Part shown: piece after piece, positions 79-10,659 of the stretch
Numbering within the stretch: the first letter of the stretch is position 1
Layout of the letters: every line of letters starts with the position of its first letter
Source of the DNA: an uncultured Prevotellaceae bacterium
GTDB lineage: Bacteria; Bacteroidota; Bacteroidia; Bacteroidales; Bacteroidaceae
Direction: 5' to 3'
Assembly (NCBI GenBank): GCA_900319225.1
Contig: ONNV01000009.1
Span: forward strand, 48,043-112,042
Length of the DNA: 64,000 nucleotides
Translations under genes and position numbers: made by a program
The notes under the pieces: generated by a model
What the model was told of the DNA's origin: nothing
Database searches by the model: none
Seen by the model: the letters and a program-made list of their open reading frames with translations, nothing else

Positions 79-1230
79 TCACTGTACGATTACAGTTTCG
101 TCAGTAGCAGGTGTAAACCCTTCTACACTTTCAACATCGAACTCAATCTTGGCAGGTTTAATATTCACAACCAGGTAATAGAAGTAGTTCTCAACGAAGT
201 TTATTGATGCAGATCCCGTTGCTGTCTGACTCTCTATTGTCGGATTATTGGCGTCATCGTGATAGTTAATTTCGTACTTAACTTCAAGTAACATACTATG
301 TTTCTGTGAGTCGACCTGGCCAGCAGGCAGAATGTTCGGTGTTACAATGTACTGCTTTGCTCCATTAATAACGGCGGCTGATGTGTTTACCTCCTGTCCG
401 GTGCCATTGCTGTATACAATTGTCTTCGTTGTGCTAGCAGTAGGCTGAGAAAGTGTACTCTCGCTGTTGCCGTTATCATATGATATTGAACCAGCATCTG
501 CATTCTTCGCAGTCTGTGTCCATTTTACGTTGCTGGCTGAAGGGAATGCTATCTTGAGCTCTTTTAATGTTACTGTGTACGCATCCTCAAACCCTTCACT
601 CTTAACTTTGAATGCTAGTTTTGAAAGAACGTGATTAAAAATAAATGAAACGTGTCCCTCATATGTTACAATTGTGTTGGAATGATTGTGACATTTTGTA
701 TAGTCAGTATTCTCTACACGAGCGACACAAAGATCAACAGTTGCAGCATCGCTAGCGTCTGCAACGACTTGACTACCTAAATCGTATACGAAACCTGTTG
801 TTGTTGAAGGCGATACGGCTGTTCTTACGAAAGAGGCAGCTGTAGATGAATATGGAGCATAAGCATAGAAATAATATCCGTTTTTATTATCATTATCTGC
901 AACTAGTGACTTATCCCAATAGCGAACATTTTGGTGAGTCCAATCGTTGGGATTCACTGTGCCATCAAATTTGACTTCCTCGTTACTGAAGAGAGAAATG
1001 GTCTGGGGGTCAGTAGATCCTTCTTTATGTTTCCAACCATATACGCCAAATGCGTTATTGACGGTTTTAAACCAATTGATGTCAATTTCTGCTTTGGTCT
1101 GCTTTTCAGAATACTGGCTTTCAAAACCAATTGATACTTCTTGATTCTTGATTTCCTTAAAGGTGTCGTTGCCCATGCAAGCTGTCAGCAGTGTGGCAGC
1201 AGCTGCGATCATCAAATAACTCTTTTTCAT
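79..1230 (-). CDS. Fimbrillin family lipoprotein (Mfa/FimA-like pilus subunit)
   Basis: A 383-residue secreted protein with a lipoprotein signal at residues 1-18 (MKKSYLMIA...LLTAC). Bacteroidales fimbrillins are lipidated, moved to the cell surface, cleaved by a gingipain-like protease and polymerised by strand exchange. The text fits the family: an early 'FGVYGW' strand, then 'RYWDKS' and 'YYFYAYAPYS', a middle 'FNHVLSKLAFKV' strand and a late 'YIVTPNILPAG' strand. It follows a similar fimbrillin gene after a 66-bp gap, probably in one operon. Its signal peptide nearly matches that of the gene upstream (MKKSYLM), which suggests duplication. Family call is secure; whether it is a stalk, tip or accessory subunit is unknown. 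Confidence 0.85.
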   Translation of the reverse strand: MKKSYLMIAAAATLLTACMGNDTFKEIKNQEVSIGFESQYSEKQTKAEIDINWFKTVNNAFGVYGWKHKEGSTDPQTISLFSNEEVKFDGTVNPNDWTHQNVRYWDKSLVADNDNKNGYYFYAYAPYSSTAASFVRTAVSPSTTTGFVYDLGSQVVADASDAATVDLCVARVENTDYTKCHNHSNTIVTYEGHVSFIFNHVLSKLAFKVKSEGFEDAYTVTLKELKIAFPSASNVKWTQTAKNADAGSISYDNGNSESTLSQPTASTTKTIVYSNGTGQEVNTSAAVINGAKQYIVTPNILPAGQVDSQKHSMLLEVKYEINYHDDANNPTIESQTATGSASINFVENYFYYLVVNIKPAKIEFDVESVEGFTPATDETVIVQ

Positions 1231-1296
1231 AATTCTCTTTTCTTTAATTGTTTATAATTGTTTTTGTTTTTTCTCTATTTGATTAGTGTTAGGGTT

Positions 1297-2454
1297 CTAA
1301 ATCTTGACATCATAGCTCAAATCTGCCCATCCGTAAGCGCTTGCATCAAATGTGATGACGCTGGGACCTATTGTGAATGTCAGATTGTAGTTGTAGCGGT
1401 CAAAGAATTCTGTAAATGCATCCTTTAAATCCAGTACGTAGGTGTATCCCTCTGAATTGATATGATACTTGACAGTAACCTTTGCGTCGTTGGGTATAGT
1501 CTGAGGTATTACCAGAGACTCTATAAAGTAAAGGGGATTTACCTTATAGGTGTCAGGACCGTCTGTGTCGGGAAGATAAGGCTCTCCTGCTGATGTCTCA
1601 TATTTGAGAACGTAATTGTCATCGTTGTTTGCTGCGGCAGGAGCCCATCCGCTTACGCGAGGTGTGCTTACGCCGTCATAGATGCTTTCTGCATATGAAC
1701 CTTTATCAACAAGTTTAGTGATAGTAACCTCGTCGATTAATACATTCTCATTGTCAAGAGTCTCAGACTTTCCAATTATAACGTTGATCTTTGACAAGAT
1801 GTGCTTGAATGTAAGCTGAACTGCAGTATGAACAGTTCCAAGCTGTGACTGTGCTGCAGATGTCATCAGGTCAAGATCCTGATTGTTTACGTTGAATCCC
1901 TTGTTCTTGGCTGCTGCAGTTGCTTTTGCCTGCAGATTCTTGCCGGTGAGAATGTAATCAGTGGCTACAAAATCGTTGCCGGCATCTCCGACCTCTGCTC
2001 CTACAGCATTGTACTTGTAGCGAAGCGGATTTGAATCCAGAGCAGGAGCGTAGGCTATAAAGTCATATTCTGCCTGTCTGTCCCAGTAACGGAGATCGGT
2101 GTAACTCCAGTTTGAACCGTAGAATGAAGCGTTTGCATCGCCTGTGTATGTGCAAGCGGTGCCGGCTTTTACTCCAGCGGTTGTAGCTGCAGATTCTCCA
2201 AATACATATTCCTTATCATGTGTCTGGGTGTGCTCTTTTGTGCCATACACTGCAAATGTGTTGTGGAAGTACTCCAGGTTGAGGATGTTGGCGCTGTTGC
2301 CATCATCGCCCTTAGTGGCTTTCTCTGAGTAGGAACTGAATCCGATAACCTTGGGTTCAGTGGTGTCTTTAAGATCGGCGTTGATCTTGTCGGTCTGTGC
2401 GCAAGATGCCAGGATTGTGGCGGTTGCGGCTAACATCAGATAACTCTTTTTCAT
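1297..2454 (-). CDS. Fimbrillin family lipoprotein, second copy
   Basis: A 385-residue protein if translation starts at 2454 (MKKSYLMLAATATILASC), which gives a clean lipoprotein signal with its cysteine at residue 18. An in-frame ATG 12 codons earlier would put a basic, non-hydrophobic tail before the signal, so I reject it. Fimbrillin hallmarks are 'FAVYGTK', 'LRYWDRQAEYDFIAYAP', 'FKHILSKINVIIG' and 'ESLVIPQTIP'. It lies between a mini membrane protein gene and another fimbrillin in the same direction. The two fimbrillins differ strongly after the signal peptide, so they are probably different pilus subunits rather than a recent duplication. Confidence 0.87.
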   Translation of the reverse strand: MKKSYLMLAATATILASCAQTDKINADLKDTTEPKVIGFSSYSEKATKGDDGNSANILNLEYFHNTFAVYGTKEHTQTHDKEYVFGESAATTAGVKAGTACTYTGDANASFYGSNWSYTDLRYWDRQAEYDFIAYAPALDSNPLRYKYNAVGAEVGDAGNDFVATDYILTGKNLQAKATAAAKNKGFNVNNQDLDLMTSAAQSQLGTVHTAVQLTFKHILSKINVIIGKSETLDNENVLIDEVTITKLVDKGSYAESIYDGVSTPRVSGWAPAAANNDDNYVLKYETSAGEPYLPDTDGPDTYKVNPLYFIESLVIPQTIPNDAKVTVKYHINSEGYTYVLDLKDAFTEFFDRYNYNLTFTIGPSVITFDASAYGWADLSYDVKI

Positions 2455-2496
2455 AAGTCCTTGTTTTTTGTTGTTTATACTTTTTTTCATTTAAAC

Positions 2497-2700
2497 TCAA
2501 TTAATGAATCGCATTGTGGTTTCATTAAACTGCGTGTACCTGCCGGTAGTCTGGCCATTCTTGCGGTTTACGCTATCCTGCATACCTCTTGGCGAGTTTG
2601 CGGAGAATAGCGACACCAATGCTGCTACAGCGAGCGAGGCCACGGCTGCAATTAGCATGTAGCGCCATTTGCCTTTTTCTTGTTCTGTAAACATACTCAA
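2497..2700 (-). CDS. Small single-pass membrane protein of the fimbrial operon
   Basis: A 67-residue protein with a charged N-terminus (about residues 1-13), one transmembrane helix (about 14-34, MLIAAVASLAVAALVSLFSA) and a polar tail. It lies 28 bp downstream of the DUF5119 lipoprotein gene and 42 bp before the fimbrillin gene, all co-directional, so it is probably co-transcribed. I do not recognise the family. The position suggests a role in pilus export or anchoring, or as a small regulator, but that is inference. The tail (about 33 residues) could lie in the periplasm. Confidence 0.65.
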   Translation of the reverse strand: MSMFTEQEKGKWRYMLIAAVASLAVAALVSLFSANSPRGMQDSVNRKNGQTTGRYTQFNETTMRFIN

Positions 2701-2728
2701 TTATTTTTAATTATTATCTTGTTTGACA

Positions 2729-3937
2729 TCAAATAGTTACCTCAGCGTTAACTTCATTGGACCAATCCTCAACACTTGCGTTGAAACCGCCTCCTGTGGT
2801 CTCCTGTTTCTTGTCCAGGAGTTCCTGCGGTATCTCAGCTCCATCAATATATATAGTAATGATACCACCGGTAGGCTTCTCGTGCATCTGGTCGGTGATA
2901 TCGCGTGTAACCGTGTATGTGTATCCGTTACGGAGTGTGAATCCTATTCCTATGTAGTTCTTGTCAAGTTCTGCGGCCTTGGTACCTGCCTTTGTCGTCT
3001 CCAGAGGAATTATTCCGGGAAGACCCCATGTGAGTACGCGGGCAGCCATGATGTCGGCGCTGTCTGCTTTTGATACGCCGTCGGCCAGGACTACATCGGC
3101 GTGCCTCTGCATGGGCTTGATGCTGTCAGTTGATATTGATATGGTATTTATGAATGTCTTGCGGGTAAATAGCTCAACGCCCTGGGCAAGACCGGTAACG
3201 GTAAGGCCCTTGGCACCAACTATGCGGCTGCCTTTCTCATCTGTATTGTTGAGAACGATTATCTGATACAGATAGATGAAAGAGTAGGGGCGCAGCGCGG
3301 CGTCTACACGGTAGATGTATGTGATGTTGCCGTCAGCGTCATATTCTTTCTCATACTCTGACGGGTCCTCATTTATGACAAGGTCAGTAACCAGTGTGCC
3401 GAACAATTCATCAGGCTGGTTGTAGTCAATGTATGAACGTGTGGTGTCAGGCATGTCACTATGCTCATTCTCGGCACGGGTGCGAACCCATGAAGGCTGA
3501 GAACTGGCTCTGGTGTATGCGGTGTATGTCTCCATATCGTCGGACTGGTAGAAGTTTGTGTACTCAGTACCGAAATTGTAGAACATCATATCATAAACAG
3601 AACCGGCGGTCAGTGATACACGGCCTCCGTTTGAATCAAATATCTTAAAGAATGAGCTGAAACGCTTTCTGGTTGAAGGGTCAACGTTGTAGATGATACC
3701 CTTGATGAGCTCAGGCTTGGTGTAGCCTATCTGGCCGTACTGCTTAGAGGTGATGTCCCAGTTGTACTGCCAATTGAGGTCCCAATCAATACCCCAGAGC
3801 AGATCCAGACGTACGTCATAGATCTCAACGAATATCTGTGTCTGGTCAACGCGCAGGTAAAGGTCCTTACGGCAAGATGAGAAGCTAAGCGGAAGCAAAA
3901 GGATTGCAAGACACAGAACTTTCTGTATCTTTGCCAT
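2729..3937 (-). CDS. DUF5119-type lipoprotein, likely pilus anchor or accessory protein
   Basis: A 402-residue protein starting at 3937 (MAKIQKVLCLAI...SFSSC). The cysteine after 'SFSS' fits a lipobox. An ATG at 3967 would add ten residues and lies within the likely leader; the start at 3937 places the signal peptide correctly. The N-terminal half has the aromatic pattern 'DLLWGIDWDLNWQYNW' that I associate with DUF5119 proteins, which occur next to fimbrillins. It is the first gene of the fimbrial operon, the usual place of FimB/Mfa2-type anchor lipoproteins. A role in anchoring or limiting pilus length is inferred from position. Family assignment is moderately sure. Confidence 0.72.
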   Translation of the reverse strand: MAKIQKVLCLAILLLPLSFSSCRKDLYLRVDQTQIFVEIYDVRLDLLWGIDWDLNWQYNWDITSKQYGQIGYTKPELIKGIIYNVDPSTRKRFSSFFKIFDSNGGRVSLTAGSVYDMMFYNFGTEYTNFYQSDDMETYTAYTRASSQPSWVRTRAENEHSDMPDTTRSYIDYNQPDELFGTLVTDLVINEDPSEYEKEYDADGNITYIYRVDAALRPYSFIYLYQIIVLNNTDEKGSRIVGAKGLTVTGLAQGVELFTRKTFINTISISTDSIKPMQRHADVVLADGVSKADSADIMAARVLTWGLPGIIPLETTKAGTKAAELDKNYIGIGFTLRNGYTYTVTRDITDQMHEKPTGGIITIYIDGAEIPQELLDKKQETTGGGFNASVEDWSNEVNAEVTI

Positions 3938-3998
3938 CAACTTGTTTGTTTTTGTTCCGCTTAACATTTAAAAATCTTCTTTTCGTTAATTTCCATTA

Positions 3999-4207: not shown

Positions 4208-4215
4208 TATATTTG
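4208..4215 (+). promoter_or_regulatory. -7 box for the AraC-family gene
   Basis: TATATTTG matches TAnnTTTG. It overlaps a possible upstream TTG start codon, so translation must begin downstream at the ATG at 4243, which is preceded by a GAAGGA-like ribosome site. Confidence 0.65.
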
Positions 4216-4242
4216 CATATCAATAGAATTGAAGGACTAAAT

Positions 4243-5454
4243 ATGTTAGGCGTATTTATTTCACAGCTCCCTTTTTCAGTTTGTGTGGTGTGGCTGATTC
4301 TTGTCCTGTTTAGAGGGCATAAGAGCTACTCCAACAGGCTTTTTATGTGGATTATGGTGCTGCTGGCAGTGAGCTTCTGGGCCGGTTCCAATCATAAACC
4401 CCCGTTCCTGGATTTCAGGAAACTGGTTTATGTGGATATCGTAATGCAGTTCTCAACCATAGCCGTATTCCCGCTCATTTGCTTTTATATAAGGTCTCTT
4501 TATGATGAGACCAATCTCAGTGTAAACGCATACCTTCTGTATCTGCCAGCAATCCTGCTTACTACATCGGCAATTGTGGTTACTATACTACTGGGTGAGG
4601 ATCATTGCTCAGAGCTTATACAGTCAATTTACAGCAATAATCTCGTGCTTGACCAGTTTGAAGTGGTAGATAGGGCATACATAGTCCTGACCTACAAGCT
4701 ATACAGAATAGTTTTCTTTGTATCTCTGGCGCTTTCTTTCATTTACGTATTTTCACGACTCTTTACGGGTAAGTTTAAAATTGTACATTTTTTATCTTTT
4801 TTGAGAGGGCAGAAATCGAGTTTTGTAGCAAACATACTCTGTTTGTTTTTCATCATCTACTTTGTGCTCTGGGCACTTTGCGTGATTTTTGCCGATGTGT
4901 TCATGAATGCGCTCTCCATTTGGTCAACCTTATGGTGTGCTACTTCGGCTTTCCTGCTTTTTCTTATCGGTTACGTATCGGCCATACCTCCGCTTCCGGG
5001 CGGTTATATGAACCTGGACCGTATGCGTCATCCGTTCAGCGCCATGAAGCAGTCACGCCAGGAGTTCCTGCAGAGTATTGATTCTGGTCCTGTCACTGAG
5101 ACTCCGGTATCAGGTTACGATAAGATAATGGAATCTTTCAAGCAGCTTATGATTACGGAGCAGGGTTTTCTTAACCCCTCTATGACTATTGATGAGATTG
5201 CAAACCGTCTGAATACCAACCGTACATACGTATCCAAGCTGGTCAATATATATTATGGTATGCCGTTCCGCGAATACCTTAACGGTCTTAGGATGGATTA
5301 TGCCAAGCAGCTTATGATTGACGAGCCTGATGCCGTGATAGATTATGTTGCGGCCAAGAGTGGATTCCAGAGCTCTACCCAGTTTATCAGGAAGTTCCGG
5401 GAGATTGAGGGTACTACCCCCACGGTCTGGAAAGCGTCGCATCGACAGAAATAA
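4243..5454 (+). CDS. Membrane-anchored AraC-family transcription regulator
   Basis: A 403-residue protein. The first about 265 residues hold roughly seven hydrophobic helices with short loops; a linker rich in charged residues follows, then a C-terminal AraC-type double helix-turn-helix (about residues 315-400), with 'TIDEIANRLNTNRTYVSKLV' and 'DYVAAKSGFQSSTQFIRKFR' as the two recognition helices and a final 'GTTPTVWKA'. Bacteroidales have many such membrane AraC proteins, presumed to sense a signal at or in the membrane. It is divergent from the fimbrial operon, so control of pilus expression is a reasonable inference. A terminator follows directly. Confidence 0.85.
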   Translation: MLGVFISQLPFSVCVVWLILVLFRGHKSYSNRLFMWIMVLLAVSFWAGSNHKPPFLDFRKLVYVDIVMQFSTIAVFPLICFYIRSLYDETNLSVNAYLLYLPAILLTTSAIVVTILLGEDHCSELIQSIYSNNLVLDQFEVVDRAYIVLTYKLYRIVFFVSLALSFIYVFSRLFTGKFKIVHFLSFLRGQKSSFVANILCLFFIIYFVLWALCVIFADVFMNALSIWSTLWCATSAFLLFLIGYVSAIPPLPGGYMNLDRMRHPFSAMKQSRQEFLQSIDSGPVTETPVSGYDKIMESFKQLMITEQGFLNPSMTIDEIANRLNTNRTYVSKLVNIYYGMPFREYLNGLRMDYAKQLMIDEPDAVIDYVAAKSGFQSSTQFIRKFREIEGTTPTVWKASHRQK

Positions 5455-5459
5455 GTATT

Positions 5460-5484
5460 AACCTCCGTCAAGGAGGTTTTTTTA
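5460..5484 (+). terminator. Rho-independent terminator after the AraC gene
   Basis: AACCTCC-GTCA-AGGAGGTT forms a 7-bp stem with a 4-base loop and is followed by a T run. It starts 5 bp after the stop codon. Confidence 0.85.
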
Positions 5485-5515
5485 TTCCTTTTTAACGCAT
5501 TTATAATTTTATTAT

Positions 5516-5523
5516 TATATTTG
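5516..5523 (+). promoter_or_regulatory. -7 box for the CXXX-repeat operon
   Basis: TATATTTG, 45 bp before the ATG at 5569, in an AT-rich stretch. No other TAnnTTTG box was noticed in the short gaps up to 9460, so the five genes are probably transcribed from here. Confidence 0.6.
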
Positions 5524-5568
5524 CGATAATTATTCATTTGCCTTTAGGTTTAAACAATACATGCTTCT

Positions 5569-6459
5569 ATGAGACGTTGTTTATTTTTGGCTTTATTCCT
5601 GTCCCTGTTATTTTCAGGCCTTACATCTGCGCAGTCTCAATATCGTGTAACTGCAAATAAACTGAATATTAGGGAAATACCTTCTACTCGAGGAGGAACC
5701 CTTGGCAGTCTGTCTAAGGGAGATACTATTCAAGTGCTATCTATCCAACAGGGATGGGCTTCTTTGCTATATAAAAGTCGTACAGGATATGTCAGTTCTT
5801 CTTACTTGGAAGAGTTGATAGTATTAACAGATACTTTGCCCCCTGTTTCTGATACGGTTAGTGTTATATCTCAGTTTCACGATTCTATTGTTTATGCACC
5901 ATTGATTAAAGATAGTGATTCAAAAAAGGATGATTTATCCAGCCGAATTGATGAATTGATTAGAAAAATTCAATTCTTTGGACAGTTGGATCTGGGTGTA
6001 TCAGACTTTGTTTGTTATGATGTTAATCCAAAAGCCGGACTTGGATTCGGATTATCATTTGGAGGCCGTTTGGATTATTCTTTGTATTCTTTCTATAATG
6101 TCCAGTTAGGAGGCAGTGAGTTTACTTTAGGCTATCATCTAAGAGGTAGTGCCGCTTTACCTATTAAATACCTTGAACTTAGGATAATTCCAATTTTGGC
6201 CCGTTATCCAGTTGGTGCGTACACTTTGATTGGTAAGGTTGGGCTTAATTTGGGTTATCCTATTTCTAATGTTAAAACAAAAACTAAAGAGCATGACGCA
6301 TCAGGTGATGTGGGACTATCATTGGGCTTAGGAGTGGAAACAGGTCAAAAATATGGATTATCTCTATCTCTTGAAAGGGGATTTTGCGATGTGACGAATG
6401 ATGGAGAAGTTGAACTTAATAACATCGGTTTCTTTGTTTCATTCATGTATTTTTTTTGA
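5569..6459 (+). CDS. Secreted SH3-domain / outer-membrane barrel protein
   Basis: A 296-residue protein with a signal peptide (residues 1-22, ending SAQS), a bacterial SH3b domain at about 24-82 ('YRVTANKLNIREIPS', 'GWASLLYKSRTGYVSSSYL'), a linker, and a C-terminal part (about 140-296) of alternating short strands rich in Gly and aromatics that ends in 'FFVSFMYFF', the typical aromatic end of an outer-membrane beta-barrel. Only 16 bp separate it from the Cys-repeat precursor gene, so it is probably part of that operon. It might place or hold the modified protein at the envelope; this is inference. I know of no fixed association of this protein with CXXX systems. Confidence 0.65.
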   Translation: MRRCLFLALFLSLLFSGLTSAQSQYRVTANKLNIREIPSTRGGTLGSLSKGDTIQVLSIQQGWASLLYKSRTGYVSSSYLEELIVLTDTLPPVSDTVSVISQFHDSIVYAPLIKDSDSKKDDLSSRIDELIRKIQFFGQLDLGVSDFVCYDVNPKAGLGFGLSFGGRLDYSLYSFYNVQLGGSEFTLGYHLRGSAALPIKYLELRIIPILARYPVGAYTLIGKVGLNLGYPISNVKTKTKEHDASGDVGLSLGLGVETGQKYGLSLSLERGFCDVTNDGEVELNNIGFFVSFMYFF

Positions 6460-6475
6460 CAAATAATAATAGCAT

Positions 6476-7222
6476 ATGGACGAAGAGTTATACAATAGAA
6501 GAGAATTCTTCAAGAAGGCTATTTCCAAGTCTTTGCCTTTTCTGGCGGGAATAATAATAGGTCCATCTATTTTATCCTGCGATACGGAGGATGATGAACT
6601 TGAGAGAAAATTAGATTGTGGCGGTAGTTGCTCCTCTGCTTGCTCAGAAGGGTGCTCGACTTCCTGTTCTGGAAGTTGCAGTTCTTCCTGTTCAGGAGGT
6701 TGCAGTACTACCTGCAAATCTACATGTAAAGGTGGTTCTACATCCAGTACCTGTAGTAGCTGTTCAAACAACTGCTCATCTACGTGTTCCGGTGGTTGTT
6801 CTGGCGGTTGCAGTACTTCATGTACGTCAACATGTAAGGGATCATCTACGTCTAGTTCATGTAGTGGTTGTGCAAACAATTGTTCGTCAGGTTGTTCAAC
6901 GGCATGTAAGGGAACATGTACTGGAGCATGTGGTAATGGCTGCTCTAATGATTGCCAAAGGAACTGTGGCACTACTTGTACGACAGCGTGTGCTGTATTA
7001 TGTGCAGATGGTTGTTCTGAATCCTGTGGTAGTTCATGCTCTGATTCTTGTTCAAGTTCTTGTGTCGGTGGTTGTAAGGGTAATTGTTCAGGAGGCTGTG
7101 GATACGGTTGTGGCGGTGGCTGTTCTTCTAGTTGTGGTGCTTGCGATAACACTTGTTATGGCCGTTGTCCCGGTGCTTGTTATACAACTTGTGTAGGTAC
7201 TTGTGCTTATTTTATGAGTTGA
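6476..7222 (+). CDS. CXXX-repeat radical SAM target protein (modified Cys-rich lipoprotein precursor)
   Basis: A 248-residue protein. Residues 1-35 hold a twin-arginine-like motif (NRREFFKKA), a hydrophobic stretch and a lipobox-like 'SILSC', so it looks like a Tat-exported lipoprotein. After an acidic linker comes about 200 residues with roughly 48 cysteines, nearly all spaced as C-x-x-x, the x residues mostly Ser, Gly, Thr and Asn. Two longer gaps (KGGSTSST and KGSSTSSS) mark an internal duplication of about 32 residues. The family is named for its Cys-Xaa-Xaa-Xaa repeats and is found next to a dedicated radical SAM enzyme, here the next gene, whose ATG overlaps this stop codon. The chemistry of the modification is not known to me. 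The long antisense reading frame here is a by-product of the repeats. Confidence 0.9.
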   Translation: MDEELYNRREFFKKAISKSLPFLAGIIIGPSILSCDTEDDELERKLDCGGSCSSACSEGCSTSCSGSCSSSCSGGCSTTCKSTCKGGSTSSTCSSCSNNCSSTCSGGCSGGCSTSCTSTCKGSSTSSSCSGCANNCSSGCSTACKGTCTGACGNGCSNDCQRNCGTTCTTACAVLCADGCSESCGSSCSDSCSSSCVGGCKGNCSGGCGYGCGGGCSSSCGACDNTCYGRCPGACYTTCVGTCAYFMS

Positions 7223-8436
7223 TGGATAAAATAAAGAGTGGACAGAACCAATGGCAGGGTGGCATGGCGAAAAATATTACGTTCATTGTCACTAAAGATT
7301 GTCAATTGGCGTGTAAGTATTGCTATTTAGTCGGGAAGAATATCAAAGAAAGAATGACATGGGAAACTGCAAAGTCATTTATTGATATGATCCTAAGCAA
7401 TGAAAAAGAGTTTAAGGAAGAGAGTGTAGTTTGGGAATTTATTGGTGGCGAGCCTTTCCTGGAGGTGGAACTGATAGATAAGATATGTGATTATCTTAAG
7501 GTTCGTATGTATGAACTAAATCATCACTGGTTTAACAGCTATCGTTTTTCTATCTCAACAAATGGAATTAACTATCATACGACTGAAGTTCAAAACTTTA
7601 TTAGAAAGAACCAGAATCATCTTTCAATTGGGATAACCATTGACGGTACACAAAAGAAACATGATTTGAATCGTGTTTACAAAATAACAGAGAGGGGATC
7701 CTACAAAGATGTGCTACGTAACATCCCCTTGTGGTTGGAACAATTTCCTTATGCAGGAACTAAAGTGACAATAAGCAGTTCAGACATTCCTTATATCTCA
7801 GAAAGTGTAATACATCTATTTGCCATTGGTATACACATGATTAACATTAATGTTGTTTTTGAAGATGTTTGGAATGAGGGTGATGATGTGTTATTTGAGA
7901 ACGAGTTGATAAAGTTGGCCGATATCATCATTGATAGAGGTTATTATCAGGATTATGTATGTTCTTTCTTCTCTGAAAATATTGGTAAACCTTTGGACGT
8001 AATACATGACAATCAAAACTGGTGTGGGGCAGGTAGAATGCTTAGTGTGGATTCGGCGGGAAACTTATATCCTTGTACCCGTTTTGCACAATATTCTCTC
8101 AGAGATAAGAAAGCGTGGATAATTGGTAATATTAAAGATGGAATAGATGACAATAAACTGCGCCCGTTCTTAACTCTTGATAGAATAAGTCAGAGTAAAC
8201 CGGAGTGTATCTCTTGTGAGGTAGCTAGCGGATGCGCTTGGTGTCAGGGAGAAAATTATGATGCTGCAAAAACTCATACTGTTTATGAACGTTCTACGGC
8301 GATTTGTAAGATGCACAAAGCAAGAGTACGTGCTAACAATTATTATTGGAATAAACTCTATCGTAAACTTGAACTAGAAGGTTTGCGTGAACAGTTTGAA
8401 GCAAATAAACGTGTGGTGAAACCTGATTTGTGCTGA
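7222..8436 (+). CDS. Radical SAM/SPASM peptide maturase of the CXXX-repeat system
   Basis: A 404-residue enzyme from the ATG at 7222, which overlaps the precursor's stop (TGATG). Earlier in-frame starts lie inside the precursor gene and are rejected. The radical SAM cluster motif CQLACKYC (Cx3Cx2C) lies at about residues 31-38, followed by 'WEFIGGEPFLE' and 'SISTNG' typical of the TIM barrel. A C-terminal SPASM region has cysteines at 'NWCGAG', 'LYPCTRF', 'PECISCEVASGCAWCQG' and 'AICKMH', able to hold two extra FeS clusters. Such enzymes cleave S-adenosylmethionine and make radical changes in ribosomal peptides, often Cys thioether links. The substrate is surely the adjacent repeat protein; the bond made is not known to me. 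Confidence 0.92.
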   Translation: MDKIKSGQNQWQGGMAKNITFIVTKDCQLACKYCYLVGKNIKERMTWETAKSFIDMILSNEKEFKEESVVWEFIGGEPFLEVELIDKICDYLKVRMYELNHHWFNSYRFSISTNGINYHTTEVQNFIRKNQNHLSIGITIDGTQKKHDLNRVYKITERGSYKDVLRNIPLWLEQFPYAGTKVTISSSDIPYISESVIHLFAIGIHMININVVFEDVWNEGDDVLFENELIKLADIIIDRGYYQDYVCSFFSENIGKPLDVIHDNQNWCGAGRMLSVDSAGNLYPCTRFAQYSLRDKKAWIIGNIKDGIDDNKLRPFLTLDRISQSKPECISCEVASGCAWCQGENYDAAKTHTVYERSTAICKMHKARVRANNYYWNKLYRKLELEGLREQFEANKRVVKPDLC

Positions 8437-8439
8437 CCT

Positions 8440-9432
8440 ATGTTGCAATATCTTGTTATATTGTTGGATGATACCAGCGTGTCTTACTGCCATGCGGATA
8501 ATCCATTAAAAGAGCGTTGCTTAATGCCGCTTGATGTCCTGAAGAAAGCAATCGTCTTTGGAATGAAAGAGAACCTGATGATTCAGTATGTCTTTCCTGA
8601 TTACGAATTACCTGAAACATACAACGATGTCATTGACAGTATAGACAATACCAAGATTTATCGTTCTGGCAATAAACCGATCACAGGTGTGAAGGAAACA
8701 GGTGATGCAGATGTCGAGGTGACGGATGGTGTTCCGGAATTGTTGTCTTGCAAGAACGTGGTTTTGCGTCTAAGCTTAAAAGATGTCATCGGCAATAAGA
8801 ATAAGATTGCTGATTTATTTAGGTCCGGAGCCAGATTAAATATTTGCATTACTGATGTGGAAAAATTCAGTGATAATGATATCAGTACATACAAGTTGCT
8901 GTTGGAAGATTGGAACCTTTCTTTATTGCAAATCTTTAAAGAAGGATTGTCTCCTCAGGTGAATATATTGACAGACAGATTGTTCCTTGATAAAATGCGA
9001 AACTGTGATGCGGGTGTGACATCAATTACTGTCGCTCCGAATGGAAGGTTCTACATTTGCCCGGCATTCTACTATGATGAAAGGATGAAGGTGGATAATA
9101 TGATGAATCATAAAAAACCCGATTTTGATAATTCTGTTGGAGATCTTACCATAGGACTAGAGATTGAAAACCAGCAGCTTTTAAGGCTTGATCACGCTCC
9201 GTTATGCAGAAATTGCGATGCATTCCAGTGCAGACGGTGCATTTGGTTAAATAGGAAACTGACATGGGATTGTAATACTCCGTCACGTCAGCAATGTGTT
9301 ATTTCTCATCTGGAAAGGAATGCCAGCAGGAGTTTGATGATTTTGCTTCAGAAATCTGGATTGTTCAGACAAAACAACAAAATAAAGGATATTGATTATC
9401 TGGATCCTTTTGACGTGAGAGAAAGAAAATAG
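8440..9432 (+). CDS. CXXX-repeat peptide maturase partner (SPASM-like, no radical SAM core motif)
   Basis: A 330-residue protein starting 3 bp after the radical SAM gene. No CxxxCxxC motif is present, but the C-terminal third has a SPASM-like pattern: 'SITVAPNGRFYICPAFYYD' and then 'APLCRNCDAFQCRRCIWLN' and 'WDCNTPSRQQCVI'. This fits the family annotated as CXXX repeat peptide maturase, which always sits beside the radical SAM enzyme. It may bind FeS clusters and the substrate, and act as a complex with the enzyme. That role is inferred. Short spacing suggests translational coupling. Confidence 0.82.
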   Translation: MLQYLVILLDDTSVSYCHADNPLKERCLMPLDVLKKAIVFGMKENLMIQYVFPDYELPETYNDVIDSIDNTKIYRSGNKPITGVKETGDADVEVTDGVPELLSCKNVVLRLSLKDVIGNKNKIADLFRSGARLNICITDVEKFSDNDISTYKLLLEDWNLSLLQIFKEGLSPQVNILTDRLFLDKMRNCDAGVTSITVAPNGRFYICPAFYYDERMKVDNMMNHKKPDFDNSVGDLTIGLEIENQQLLRLDHAPLCRNCDAFQCRRCIWLNRKLTWDCNTPSRQQCVISHLERNASRSLMILLQKSGLFRQNNKIKDIDYLDPFDVRERK

Positions 9433-9459
9433 AACTAATTAATATAAACCAATTAAAGA

Positions 9460-9735
9460 ATGAAGACTAAAGTAGGACAGGTTACTCCTGAAGAAAAAGT
9501 AGAAATACAGCGTCTGTTTGAGCGTCGTAATGGATTAAATGAATTGGCAAAGATTCTTACTGCAGATAATACAGATTTGTATGAGAAACTGGTAAAAGAT
9601 ATGGGAGAAACCAGCGTGAAGTTTCAGACATGGTGGGATAAGATGGGTGAAAAGTATAAATGGAAGTCTATAGAGGGCGCAAATTGGGAGATTGATTTTG
9701 ATACACGTGATATCTATCTTGTAACGAAAGAGTGA
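9460..9735 (+). CDS. CXXX-repeat peptide modification system small protein
   Basis: A 91-residue soluble protein, largely helical by composition, with two Trp residues in 'QTWWDKMGEKYKW' and a terminal acidic segment. It has no cysteine, signal peptide or membrane helix. Position (27 bp after the SPASM-like gene, last in the operon) and length match the small accessory family annotated as CXXX repeat peptide modification system protein. It might be a substrate-recognition or chaperone protein; this is inferred. The operon ends here against a convergent gene. Confidence 0.8.
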   Translation: MKTKVGQVTPEEKVEIQRLFERRNGLNELAKILTADNTDLYEKLVKDMGETSVKFQTWWDKMGEKYKWKSIEGANWEIDFDTRDIYLVTKE

Positions 9736-9768
9736 TATCGGGTATAATCAGTTCTGGAATTGTTTGTG

Positions 9769-10278
9769 CTATTTCTGCTCTGAGATAGATTTGAAGTTGC
9801 TGAGGACTTCATTTCTAAGAATCTGCACCAGAGGTAGGTGTTGGTCTCTAAGAAGAAAATGAGCATAGAACGTTTGCTGGGGTTGGGTCGATCTCATTTC
9901 AATTTCTATATCGGACCAATGATCTCCTGCAATGGTACTGTACCGTTGAAACAGAAGCTTGAATAGATTGTTCCTGTATTCCTGGTAGGTTTGTTCTTTT
10001 CCGGCTCTTTGATACGGTATTTCTTCTGTTATGTCACAGAAATAATAAAGCACTGTATTTGGGTTGTCTTGGGCGATAGAAATCAGGACTTGGGCAATTT
10101 TCCCGAATACTTCAATGTTGATGGGACCGTTTCCTGCCTCACGGATAATAGTTATTTCAACTATTTCCAGTTGTGGGAAACGGTCTCCAATTAATTGGGT
10201 AATATATGGATAGAAAGAAGTAAGGGAAACTATTATTTTGTCTCCCTCTTTAGTTATGACATCAAACGACAGATTCAT
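9769..10278 (-). CDS. Hypothetical protein, DUF6169-like at a guess
   Basis: A 169-residue soluble protein. The middle reads 'TVLYYFCDI' and later 'YRNNLFKLLFQRY' and 'FYAHFLLRDQH', a pattern I loosely associate with DUF6169 proteins of Bacteroidales; I am not sure of that. Its ATG overlaps by one base the stop codon of a 46-residue gene upstream (TAATG), so the two are translationally coupled. It ends 33 bp from the end of the convergent CXXX operon. A toxin-antitoxin or defence role is possible from the two-gene layout but nothing in the sequence proves it. Confidence 0.6.
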   Translation of the reverse strand: MNLSFDVITKEGDKIIVSLTSFYPYITQLIGDRFPQLEIVEITIIREAGNGPINIEVFGKIAQVLISIAQDNPNTVLYYFCDITEEIPYQRAGKEQTYQEYRNNLFKLLFQRYSTIAGDHWSDIEIEMRSTQPQQTFYAHFLLRDQHLPLVQILRNEVLSNFKSISEQK

Positions 10279-10418
10279 TATACTTGAATGCTGAACGTAT
10301 GTGTCTCCTTATCTAAAAGTTCTTTGCGCTGAGCTTCTTTCTTCTGGCGCATCTTCTCTACGAAATCCCATACCTTCTTAGGCGGGTTTTCAATTACTAT
10401 TTTCTCATTGCTTTCCAT
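10278..10418 (-). CDS. 46-residue hypothetical protein coupled to the next gene
   Basis: Reads MESNEKIVIENPPKKVWDF then a strongly charged helix rich in Lys, Glu, Gln and Arg, ending in SIQV. The 'NPPKKVWDFVEKM' segment could fold on a partner and the helix is like an antitoxin tail, but this is only suggestive. The stop overlaps the start of the 169-residue gene. A promoter box lies about 70 bp upstream. Confidence 0.65.
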   Translation of the reverse strand: MESNEKIVIENPPKKVWDFVEKMRQKKEAQRKELLDKETHTFSIQV

Positions 10419-10485
10419 AGTGTATTTCTTTATAAGGAGTGTCGCTGTTTATGTAAAATGCACGTTTACATTGTTTTGTATGATG

Positions 10486-10493
10486 CAAATATA
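10486..10493 (-). promoter_or_regulatory. -7 box for the two-gene unit at 9.8-10.4 kb
   Basis: TATATTTG on the minus strand, matching TAnnTTTG, 68 bp before the 46-residue gene. Confidence 0.6.
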
Positions 10494-10597
10494 CATGATT
10501 CCCGGATTATTATGCTATGTCTCGGTGAAAAATGTGTTTCGATATAATAATCTTTGTTTTTTTACGGCTATTACGGAGGTGGTTTGGGGGATTTGAT

Positions 10598-10605
10598 TAT
10601 ATTTG
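10598..10605 (+). promoter_or_regulatory. -7 box for the V-ATPase operon
   Basis: TATATTTG, 54 bp before the subunit E start. The 241-bp gap 10419-10659 holds this box and the divergent one; nothing else was recognised. Confidence 0.65.
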
Positions 10606-10659
10606 CGATTCTGTATGTGCAAGCATACTTTGAACACAGAGAATTATCAATAATAACCT

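Follow-up and report, generated by a model that had tools for sequence, protein, structure and literature searches.

The window analysed here, a stretch of 64,000 nucleotides from contig ONNV01000009.1 of an uncultured Prevotellaceae bacterium, carries a five-gene operon of the CXXX-repeat system, which combines a Cys-rich precursor with a radical S-adenosylmethionine (SAM) enzyme. The locus raises the question of what such an operon makes, and where in the cell its product is placed. From the sequence, we consider it probable, though well short of certain, that the operon makes a Cys-repeat lipoprotein that is modified by the radical SAM enzyme, exported by the twin-arginine translocation (Tat) pathway and anchored at the cell surface. 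A heavily modified, surface or periplasmic Cys-rich product had been proposed in the preliminary description of the window, and appears plausible to us as well; the Tat signal, which was not mentioned there, is the feature we find most informative.

Five open reading frames (ORFs) on the + strand lie head to tail as one operon (5569-9735), as listed below together with the evidence for each assignment.

5569-6459, +: SH3 plus beta-barrel outer-membrane protein, putative companion of the lipoprotein-type precursor (PF08239; PF13505 sub-threshold)
6476-7222, +: Cys-repeat precursor, 248 amino acids, 49 Cys (TIGR04117 below cut-off, Cys spacing)
6494-6514, +: twin-arginine motif N-R-R-E-F-F-K in the precursor leader (count of RRxF motifs, Tat consensus)
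6578-6598, +: putative lipobox Cys (ILSC) followed by acidic D-T-E-D-D-E (published export signal, lipobox rule)
6617-7204, +: CXXX repeat core, rich in Ser, Gly and Thr (residue counts)
7222-8436, +: radical SAM/SPASM peptide maturase (TIGR04115, alignment, CteB match)
8440-9432, +: partner protein with a predicted degenerate radical SAM fold (TIGR04119, alignment, structure model)
9460-9735, +: small accessory protein, predicted beta-alpha-alpha-beta-beta (TIGR04116, model)

The intergenic gaps are 16, -1, 3 and 27 nt, which bears out the tight and overlapping junctions described earlier: the ATG of the radical SAM gene at 7222 shares 1 nt with the precursor stop TGA, the mechanical ORF beginning further upstream at a TTG (7153). 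The claim that the last four genes match CXXX-repeat families holds for the three maturation proteins, all of which exceeded the NCBIfam cut-offs, namely TIGR04115 (CXXX-repeat radical SAM maturase; 612.6 bits, cut-off 350), TIGR04119 (CXXX-repeat maturase; 216.8 bits, cut-off 150) and TIGR04116 (CXXX-repeat accessory protein; 96.2 bits, cut-off 50). For the precursor the match stays below cut-off, at 38.7 bits (E 7.8e-10) against the target model TIGR04117 (cut-off 50) and 10.2 bits against TIGR04114 (cut-off 20), although its CXXX repeats are clear. The first gene product matched the bacterial SH3 domain PF08239 in Pfam (43.9 bits, cut-off 27) and, below threshold, the beta-barrel family PF13505 (21.1 bits, cut-off 28.7). 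The window's operon resembles the NCBIfam system in its three maturation families and in the gene order of its relatives, and differs from it by the SH3/beta-barrel gene in front, by the lack of TatA and TatC genes in the operon and by the low-scoring precursor. In that precursor, 42 of the 48 Cys-Cys spacings are exactly 4, a regularity that is plainly non-random even without a chance model. No second precursor was detected in the genome at E ≤ 1, albeit low-complexity sequence might conceal one.

The steps that we propose are as follows. Cross-links would first be made in the cytoplasm by the radical SAM/SPASM enzyme, its degenerate partner and the small protein, with the Cys of the CXXX repeats most likely being joined to neighbouring residues through thioethers. 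The modified, rigid protein would then be unfit for the Sec pathway and would leave folded via Tat, with TatA and TatC supplied in this genome from another locus. Judging from the leader sequence alone, the protein would be cleaved at the lipobox and lipidated at its Cys, and the acidic residues would steer it to the outer surface; judging from association alone, the SH3/beta-barrel protein would be its partner in the outer membrane. As to the use of the product, our guess is a stable Cys-rich surface structure. If this is correct, a widespread family, the chemistry of which we did not find described in the literature, gains a direct genetic test of Tat dependence.

The precursor leader and its probable link to Tat

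The comparisons below cover two sets of relatives. Of 301 family genomes, 35 have a match above the TIGR04115 cut-off. When named genomes were scanned with an alignment built from 20 relatives, 371 relatives were confirmed; the best 80 of these make up the named set, which was chosen for likeness to the window. By their titles these 80 are Bacteroidota, for the most part assemblies from rumen and gut; isolates among them include Hoylesella loescheii, Bacteroides congonensis and Xylanibacter rarus. Together with 36 family regions and the window itself they amount to 117 loci; removing 8 duplicates with identical radical SAM C-termini left 109 distinct loci, and setting aside 10 with less than 4 kb downstream and no TatC left 99 assessable ones.

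The leader of the window precursor reads N-R-R-E-F-F-K-K ... G-P-S-I-L-S-C-D-T-E-D-D-E, and it shows what is expected of a Tat substrate, i.e., a twin-arginine motif, a hydrophobic stretch and a cleavage site. An RRxF motif near the N-terminus was found in 184 of 197 Cys-repeat ORFs, the window's included, where the 197 come from all 117 loci, retain the duplicates and contain a few spurious or cut ORFs; among the distinct loci, 103 of 109 have at least one such ORF. The typical leader is S-R-R-E-F-F-K-K-A-A followed by L-P-I-x-G. When duplicate loci were removed, 165 precursors remained, of which 90 have leaders ending in an AxA-like site, 43 in a lipobox-like site (some of these being likely miscalls) and 32 in neither, so that in 133 of 165 a hydrophobic stretch and one of the two types of site come after the motif.

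The gene context of the relatives points in the same direction. Their usual order is precursor(s), radical SAM enzyme, partner, small protein, TatA and TatC. In 86 of the 99 assessable loci a TatC gene follows the radical SAM gene on its own strand at a distance of no more than 6 kb, a count that keeps short contigs with TatC but discards short ones without it; the fairer figure is 72 of the 84 loci having at least 6 kb downstream (21/28 in the family set and 51/56 in the named set). TatA was scored in 87 of the 99 loci, the small protein in 97 and the partner in 95 by the overlap rule of the script, the partner being visible in the other four (L070, L095, L100 and L115) when its start is extended. 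Around other radical SAM genes, neither TatC nor TatA was found at E ≤ 1e-5 in any of 20 control regions, which surround radical SAM hits below the TIGR04115 cut-off, were taken from the better ones listed and are in some cases cut by contig ends; one of them (L193) matched the partner profile weakly.

Genomes with the system also tend to have additional TatC genes. By eye, at least two were counted in 22 of 35 system genomes and in 15 of 266 others (Fisher's test, p 5e-15), and at least one in 34 of 35 and 203 of 266, respectively (p 0.003). In a quick TatC tree built from 42 of the 84 available operon TatCs and 21 others, 35 of the 42 formed one clade (Shimodaira-Hasegawa approximate likelihood-ratio support of 100) with none of the 21 others inside, and operon and non-operon labels changed twice along the tree as against 17.8 times in shuffles.

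The operon in the window has no Tat genes, unlike those of its relatives, in which TatA and TatC are near-constant. The system was previously called complete; this is true of the five ORFs, but the Tat genes lie elsewhere in the genome, where we found a TatC at another locus (G000:C14; PF00902, 200.3 bits) with a TatA-like ORF alongside. Similarly, the family genomes without TatC within 6 kb of the operon (G219, G197, G011, G134, G110, G259 and G077) each have at least one TatC. Elsewhere, the 6 kb stretch of L040 holds TatA without a TatC, and in L064 TatC is 7.6 kb away. Bacteroides congonensis (L098) and Bacteroides sp. GM023 (L122), each with the barrel gene and an acidic-lipobox precursor, likewise show no TatC in this range.

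Leader and gene context, taken together, argue that the precursor is probably exported by Tat. Several points weigh against the reading as a whole, or at least against the firmness of its counts. Modification, export and location are all inferred. TatC is common in genomes lacking the system (the 203 of 266 above), so its presence alone says little, and 13 of the assessable loci, the window's among them, show none within 6 kb. One system genome, G193, shows no TatC, although it is 81% complete and its operon is cut by a contig end. Seven of the 42 operon TatCs fell outside the main clade and grouped with a single non-operon TatC on a long branch. Long branches occur at several places in the tree, so that a single origin of the operon TatCs is not established. 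The loci are related, which means that the p values overstate their independence, and the leader counts carry the duplicates, spurious ORFs and miscalls mentioned above.

Alternatively, the twin-arginine motif could be a handle by which the maturation enzymes recognise the precursor, with export being left to Sec. Leaders of ribosomally synthesised and post-translationally modified peptides (RiPPs) usually bind their enzymes, and neither family scans of the maturation proteins nor the model of the small protein gave a leader-binding domain. We nevertheless regard this as very unlikely, as TatA and TatC genes adjoin the operon in most relatives, and as the motif is followed by the hydrophobic stretch and cleavage-like site described above. 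Export of a cross-linked protein by Tat would explain why this pathway is needed, because such a protein should not thread through Sec. We know of no radical-SAM peptide modification system that is tied to Tat and has TatA and TatC genes of its own. Our literature search found none either, though Haft and Basu 2011 might hold an earlier remark on Tat.

The maturation proteins and the chemistry of the repeats

What the enzymes do to the precursor may be approached through their relatives. In the radical SAM enzyme, both the CX3CX2C motif (C27, C31, C34) and seven SPASM Cys (C268, C285, C329, C332, C338, C341, C362) are conserved in all 20 aligned sequences, one of which is the window's. Its nearest characterised profile is that of the PapB family (NF047865), although the score of 190.6 bits is under the cut-off of 340, and its sole solved relative at E 0.001 is CteB (5wgg, E 2e-22). 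CteB forms thioethers according to its PDB title, as does PapB according to excerpts of the published work (PMC9413430). By analogy, any cross-links in the window's product are probably thioethers. Two relatives, L061 and L062, have two tandem radical SAM genes of this family before a single partner gene.

The partner protein, termed SPASM-like in the preliminary description, can now be described more sharply. Across 52 aligned sequences it conserves seven Cys at SPASM-like spacing (C189, C207, C256, C259, C264, C267, C286), lacks CX3CX2C and has C17 as the sole invariant Cys before the SPASM region; in our reading, C17 stands about where the third Cys of CX3CX2C would be. Its structure model (predicted local distance difference test (pLDDT) of 89.1) matched CteB best (5why, E 2.2e-9, TMq 0.66), followed by sulfatase-maturing radical SAM enzymes. 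In profile comparison, the SPASM part could be aligned to that of the radical SAM family (hhalign probability 84, E 7e-6), and TIGR04119 also matched the radical SAM enzyme itself at 183-373 with a sub-cut-off score of 43.6 bits. The partner is thus predicted to have a radical SAM fold from which the SAM cluster site has been lost, and which resembles that of thioether-forming enzymes; if true, a probably SAM-inactive radical SAM relative would serve as an enzyme partner.

A natural fusion bears on how the two proteins work together. Matches to the radical SAM enzyme occurred in 62 plasmid records, the best among the matches listed being Anaerococcus prevotii pAPRE01 (47.9%), which was also the sole match to the partner protein among plasmid records. 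In viral contigs, 54 stretches fitted a pattern, but none codes for a relative. On pAPRE01 the radical SAM enzyme and the partner are fused into a single protein of 728 amino acids, with TIGR04115 at 21-377 and TIGR04119 at 505-711, both over cut-off, which supports a physical complex between the two. The fusion is accompanied by a 41-amino-acid ORF partly matching TIGR04116 below cut-off, by a peptide of 56 amino acids with four Cys at CX3 spacing and by ATP-binding cassette (ABC) transporter genes, and the annotation of the stretches examined lists no Tat gene. Annotated class III lanthipeptide genes lie side by side with the fusion and the four-Cys peptide (L208, 1-12000).

Two known systems suggest what the partner might contribute. 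In thuricin CD biosynthesis, as excerpted from PMC12093266, the two radical SAM proteins TrnC and TrnD form a tight complex in which the SAM activity of only one of them is strictly needed, and excerpts of PMC10470005 state that PapB requires electrons to be handed over between molecules. On the basis of these two, a role of the partner in electron transfer or in holding the substrate seems reasonable, although TrnC and TrnD are both active SAM enzymes whereas the window's partner lacks CX3CX2C. For the small protein there is less to go on. Its best model of five had a pLDDT of 90.3 (71-73 for the other four) and consists of two long helices and a small sheet. We considered that it might be a leader-binding (RRE) domain, but this was unsupported, with no significant PDB match (best E 0.72); matches of its helical hairpin to Get1 had E about 1 and TMq 0.57-0.60.

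The short peptide on pAPRE01 invites the idea that the product is instead a secreted RiPP, whose core would be freed by proteolysis to act as a signal or an antimicrobial. Short precursors of ~80-130 amino acids with AxA-type leaders are indeed common in relatives, and the four-Cys peptide adjoins transporter genes. The precursor in the window is, however, a lipobox protein of 248 amino acids, precursor ORFs reach 470 amino acids (counted from a mechanical start), and scans against NCBIfam and Pfam matched none of the five operon proteins to a peptidase or peptide ABC transporter family. We therefore think a secreted RiPP quite unlikely.

The repeats themselves are strikingly uniform. Among the 165 precursors, 86% of the Cys-Cys spacings are 4, and the commonest residues after Cys are Ser, Thr and Lys at +1, Gly at +2 and Ser, Gly and Thr at +3. 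The number of Cys per precursor has a median of 15 and reaches 74, and evenly spaced runs contain up to 52 Cys. Such numbers could also suit a metalloprotein, in which the Cys repeats would be occupied, in place of cross-links, by metal or iron-sulphur cofactors acquired in the cytoplasm, and in which Tat would be needed for that reason; the radical SAM pair would then make a few modifications or mature the cofactor. Tat typically exports cofactor-loaded proteins, and the conserved SPASM Cys of the partner could hold or pass on clusters. Against this stand the enzyme's nearest characterised relatives, which form thioethers, and the runs of evenly spaced Cys, which are unlike any cluster ligand set known to us. 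We rate this reading, taken as a whole, as unlikely.

If cross-links are formed, as we prefer to think, which residue accepts them? Excerpts of PMC9413430 describe PapB as linking Cys to Asp or Glu in CX3D/E while tolerating other spacings, and the Cys of its substrate PapA as lying four residues from the acceptor (CX3D). The freyrasin system PapB/PapA, a ranthipeptide system, is therefore close to ours in enzyme profile and in spacing, but it differs in that the precursors here have Cys at +4 inside the runs and mostly Ser, Ala or Thr at their ends, and in that our system has a separate SPASM partner and a Tat leader. At 332 unique run ends, the residue at +4 is Ser in 147, Ala in 46, Thr in 39, Asn in 29, Gly in 16, Asp in 6 and Glu in 3, apart from others. 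With Asp or Glu at just 9 of 332 ends, PapB chemistry cannot apply unchanged, a further point against our reading. CteB, the maturase of SCIFF, resembles the radical SAM enzyme in sequence and the partner in model fold (5wgg, 5why), and differs in its substrate and in its N-terminal leader-binding domain, for which the window's enzyme has no room (the match begins at residue 15 as against 95).

It is tempting to speculate that the system represents a dedicated Tat-coupled class in Bacteroidales in which a bond links every Cys of a run to the beta-carbon at +4, giving a continuous thioether (dithioacetal) ladder, since the +4 acceptor inside a run would be the next Cys. Without the ladder, such a Tat-coupled class is the reading that we prefer. 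For such a ladder speak the Ser, Ala or Thr at +4 in 232 of the 332 unique run-end contexts, and the scarcity there of Gly, which has no beta-carbon (4.8%, compared with 20.3% of non-Cys core residues). Gly is, however, also scarce at +1 (4%) and +3 (8%), so +4 does not stand out in this respect, and Cys is commonly replaced by Ser and Ala. Both observations lowered our already small expectation a little further, and the ladder is best regarded as a long shot.

Proposed surface display and the SH3/beta-barrel companion

As for where the product ends up, an acidic signal just behind the lipidated Cys marks surface lipoproteins of Bacteroidota, C-X-K-(D/E)2-X being given for Capnocytophaga and SDDDD proposed for B. 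fragilis in excerpts of PMC5080379. The C-D-T-E-D-D-E of the window is acidic like these signals, and identical to none of them. In the six places after the first Cys, acidic residues amount to 38% in the lipobox class and 5.9% in the AxA class. When a lipobox and at least two acidic residues in those six places were strictly required, 35 of the 165 precursors, the window's included, were assigned to an acidic-lipobox class. A surface location, favoured by this leader class, is plausible.

The preliminary description asked whether the outer-membrane protein gene is conserved with the system. As a fixed member it is not: a profile seeded from five loci, which are counted within the result, found 13 SH3/beta-barrel ORFs in 13 of the 109 distinct loci. 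The gene is tied instead to the acidic-lipobox class. It stands directly before a precursor in 11 of the 13 loci, and all 11 such precursors belong to that class, compared with 24 of the 154 other precursors (p 9e-9, which is too kind as L098/L122 and L084/L086 look like close kin among the eleven). The two remaining ORFs (L102, L119) precede the small-protein gene. If the association is genuine, the window would encode a candidate surface lipoprotein together with the outer-membrane barrel that matches it. When the nearest non-precursor ORF on the upstream side was scanned against Pfam at 61 loci, other partners appeared elsewhere, e.g., Big_2 in 4 of 61, which suggests that the upstream gene is exchangeable. 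In L031, L042, L045 and L052 the upstream companion is different (a Big_2 Ig-like protein in L045 and similar-looking ORFs in the others), and the precursors are of a distinct type with a GTA-x-x-GC motif.

The site beside the V-ATPase operon

How the operon came to its present site can be judged from congeners, as 35 of 37 genomes of the genus, including that of the window, were found to have the V-ATPase gene that adjoins it. TIGR04115 exceeded its cut-off in none of the 20 other sampled genomes of the genus, leaving the window's own as the only one of 21. We compared 15 congeneric loci upstream of the V-ATPase gene, 14 of which show both flanks, namely the first V-ATPase gene and the AraC-family gene, the latter being partial in L168 and L176. 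The operon is absent from the site in 14 of 14, and its five genes had no match in any of the 15 loci at E ≤ 1e-4. The interval between the ends of homology is 88-166 bp in 11 of the 14 and holds 612-1239 bp of other sequence in three. In the window, by comparison, the gap from the AraC-family gene (4213-5454) to the V-ATPase operon (from 10660) is 5205 bp. Guided by a terminator-like hairpin after the AraC-family gene and by the region upstream of the V-ATPase genes, we placed the edges by eye at about 5487 and 10575, i.e., a segment of ~5.1 kb; inspection by eye gave no clear call of exact ends or target-site repeats. The segment and its two additional ORFs are as follows.

5487-10575, no strand: approximate inserted segment (congener comparison; ends by eye, +/- tens of bases)
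9769-10278, -: gene for a protein of 169 amino acids without family match, probably a passenger (NCBIfam and Pfam scans, rarity)
10278-10418, -: ORF of 46 amino acids, possible passenger (adjoins the 169-amino-acid gene)

The cassette thus seems to have reached this lineage as an insert of ~5.1 kb, and we infer the direction of transfer from its absence elsewhere; loss in all congeners instead of gain is possible but less likely. Transfer had been suggested earlier from base composition. The G+C of the operon is indeed lower than that of the V-ATPase operon, with third-codon-position values of 0.26-0.42 as against 0.59-0.61 in five V-ATPase genes, but we rejected low G+C as sufficient proof because the core lies below its flanks in 77 of 98 loci; it is the empty site that carries the case. 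The radical SAM proteins nearest to the window's (78-80.5% identity) come from named Bacteroidales records, the named set having been picked by similarity, and none is from the family sample. A tree built to place the window's enzyme did not put it in any supported group.

Both ORFs between 9769 and 10418 lie on the - strand within the insert. The 169-amino-acid protein matched nothing in NCBIfam or Pfam and was found in 4 of 151 genomes of the family, the window's own included; with no homologue in the 36 family regions either, we ruled it out as a part of the system. The gap between the AraC-family gene and the V-ATPase operon (5455-10659) may be an insertion spot, as L171, L178 and L182 are the three loci that hold other sequence there. 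To the left of the operon, three - strand genes (79-3967) have lipoprotein-like starts, and the one at 2729-3967 matches DUF5119 (PF17145).

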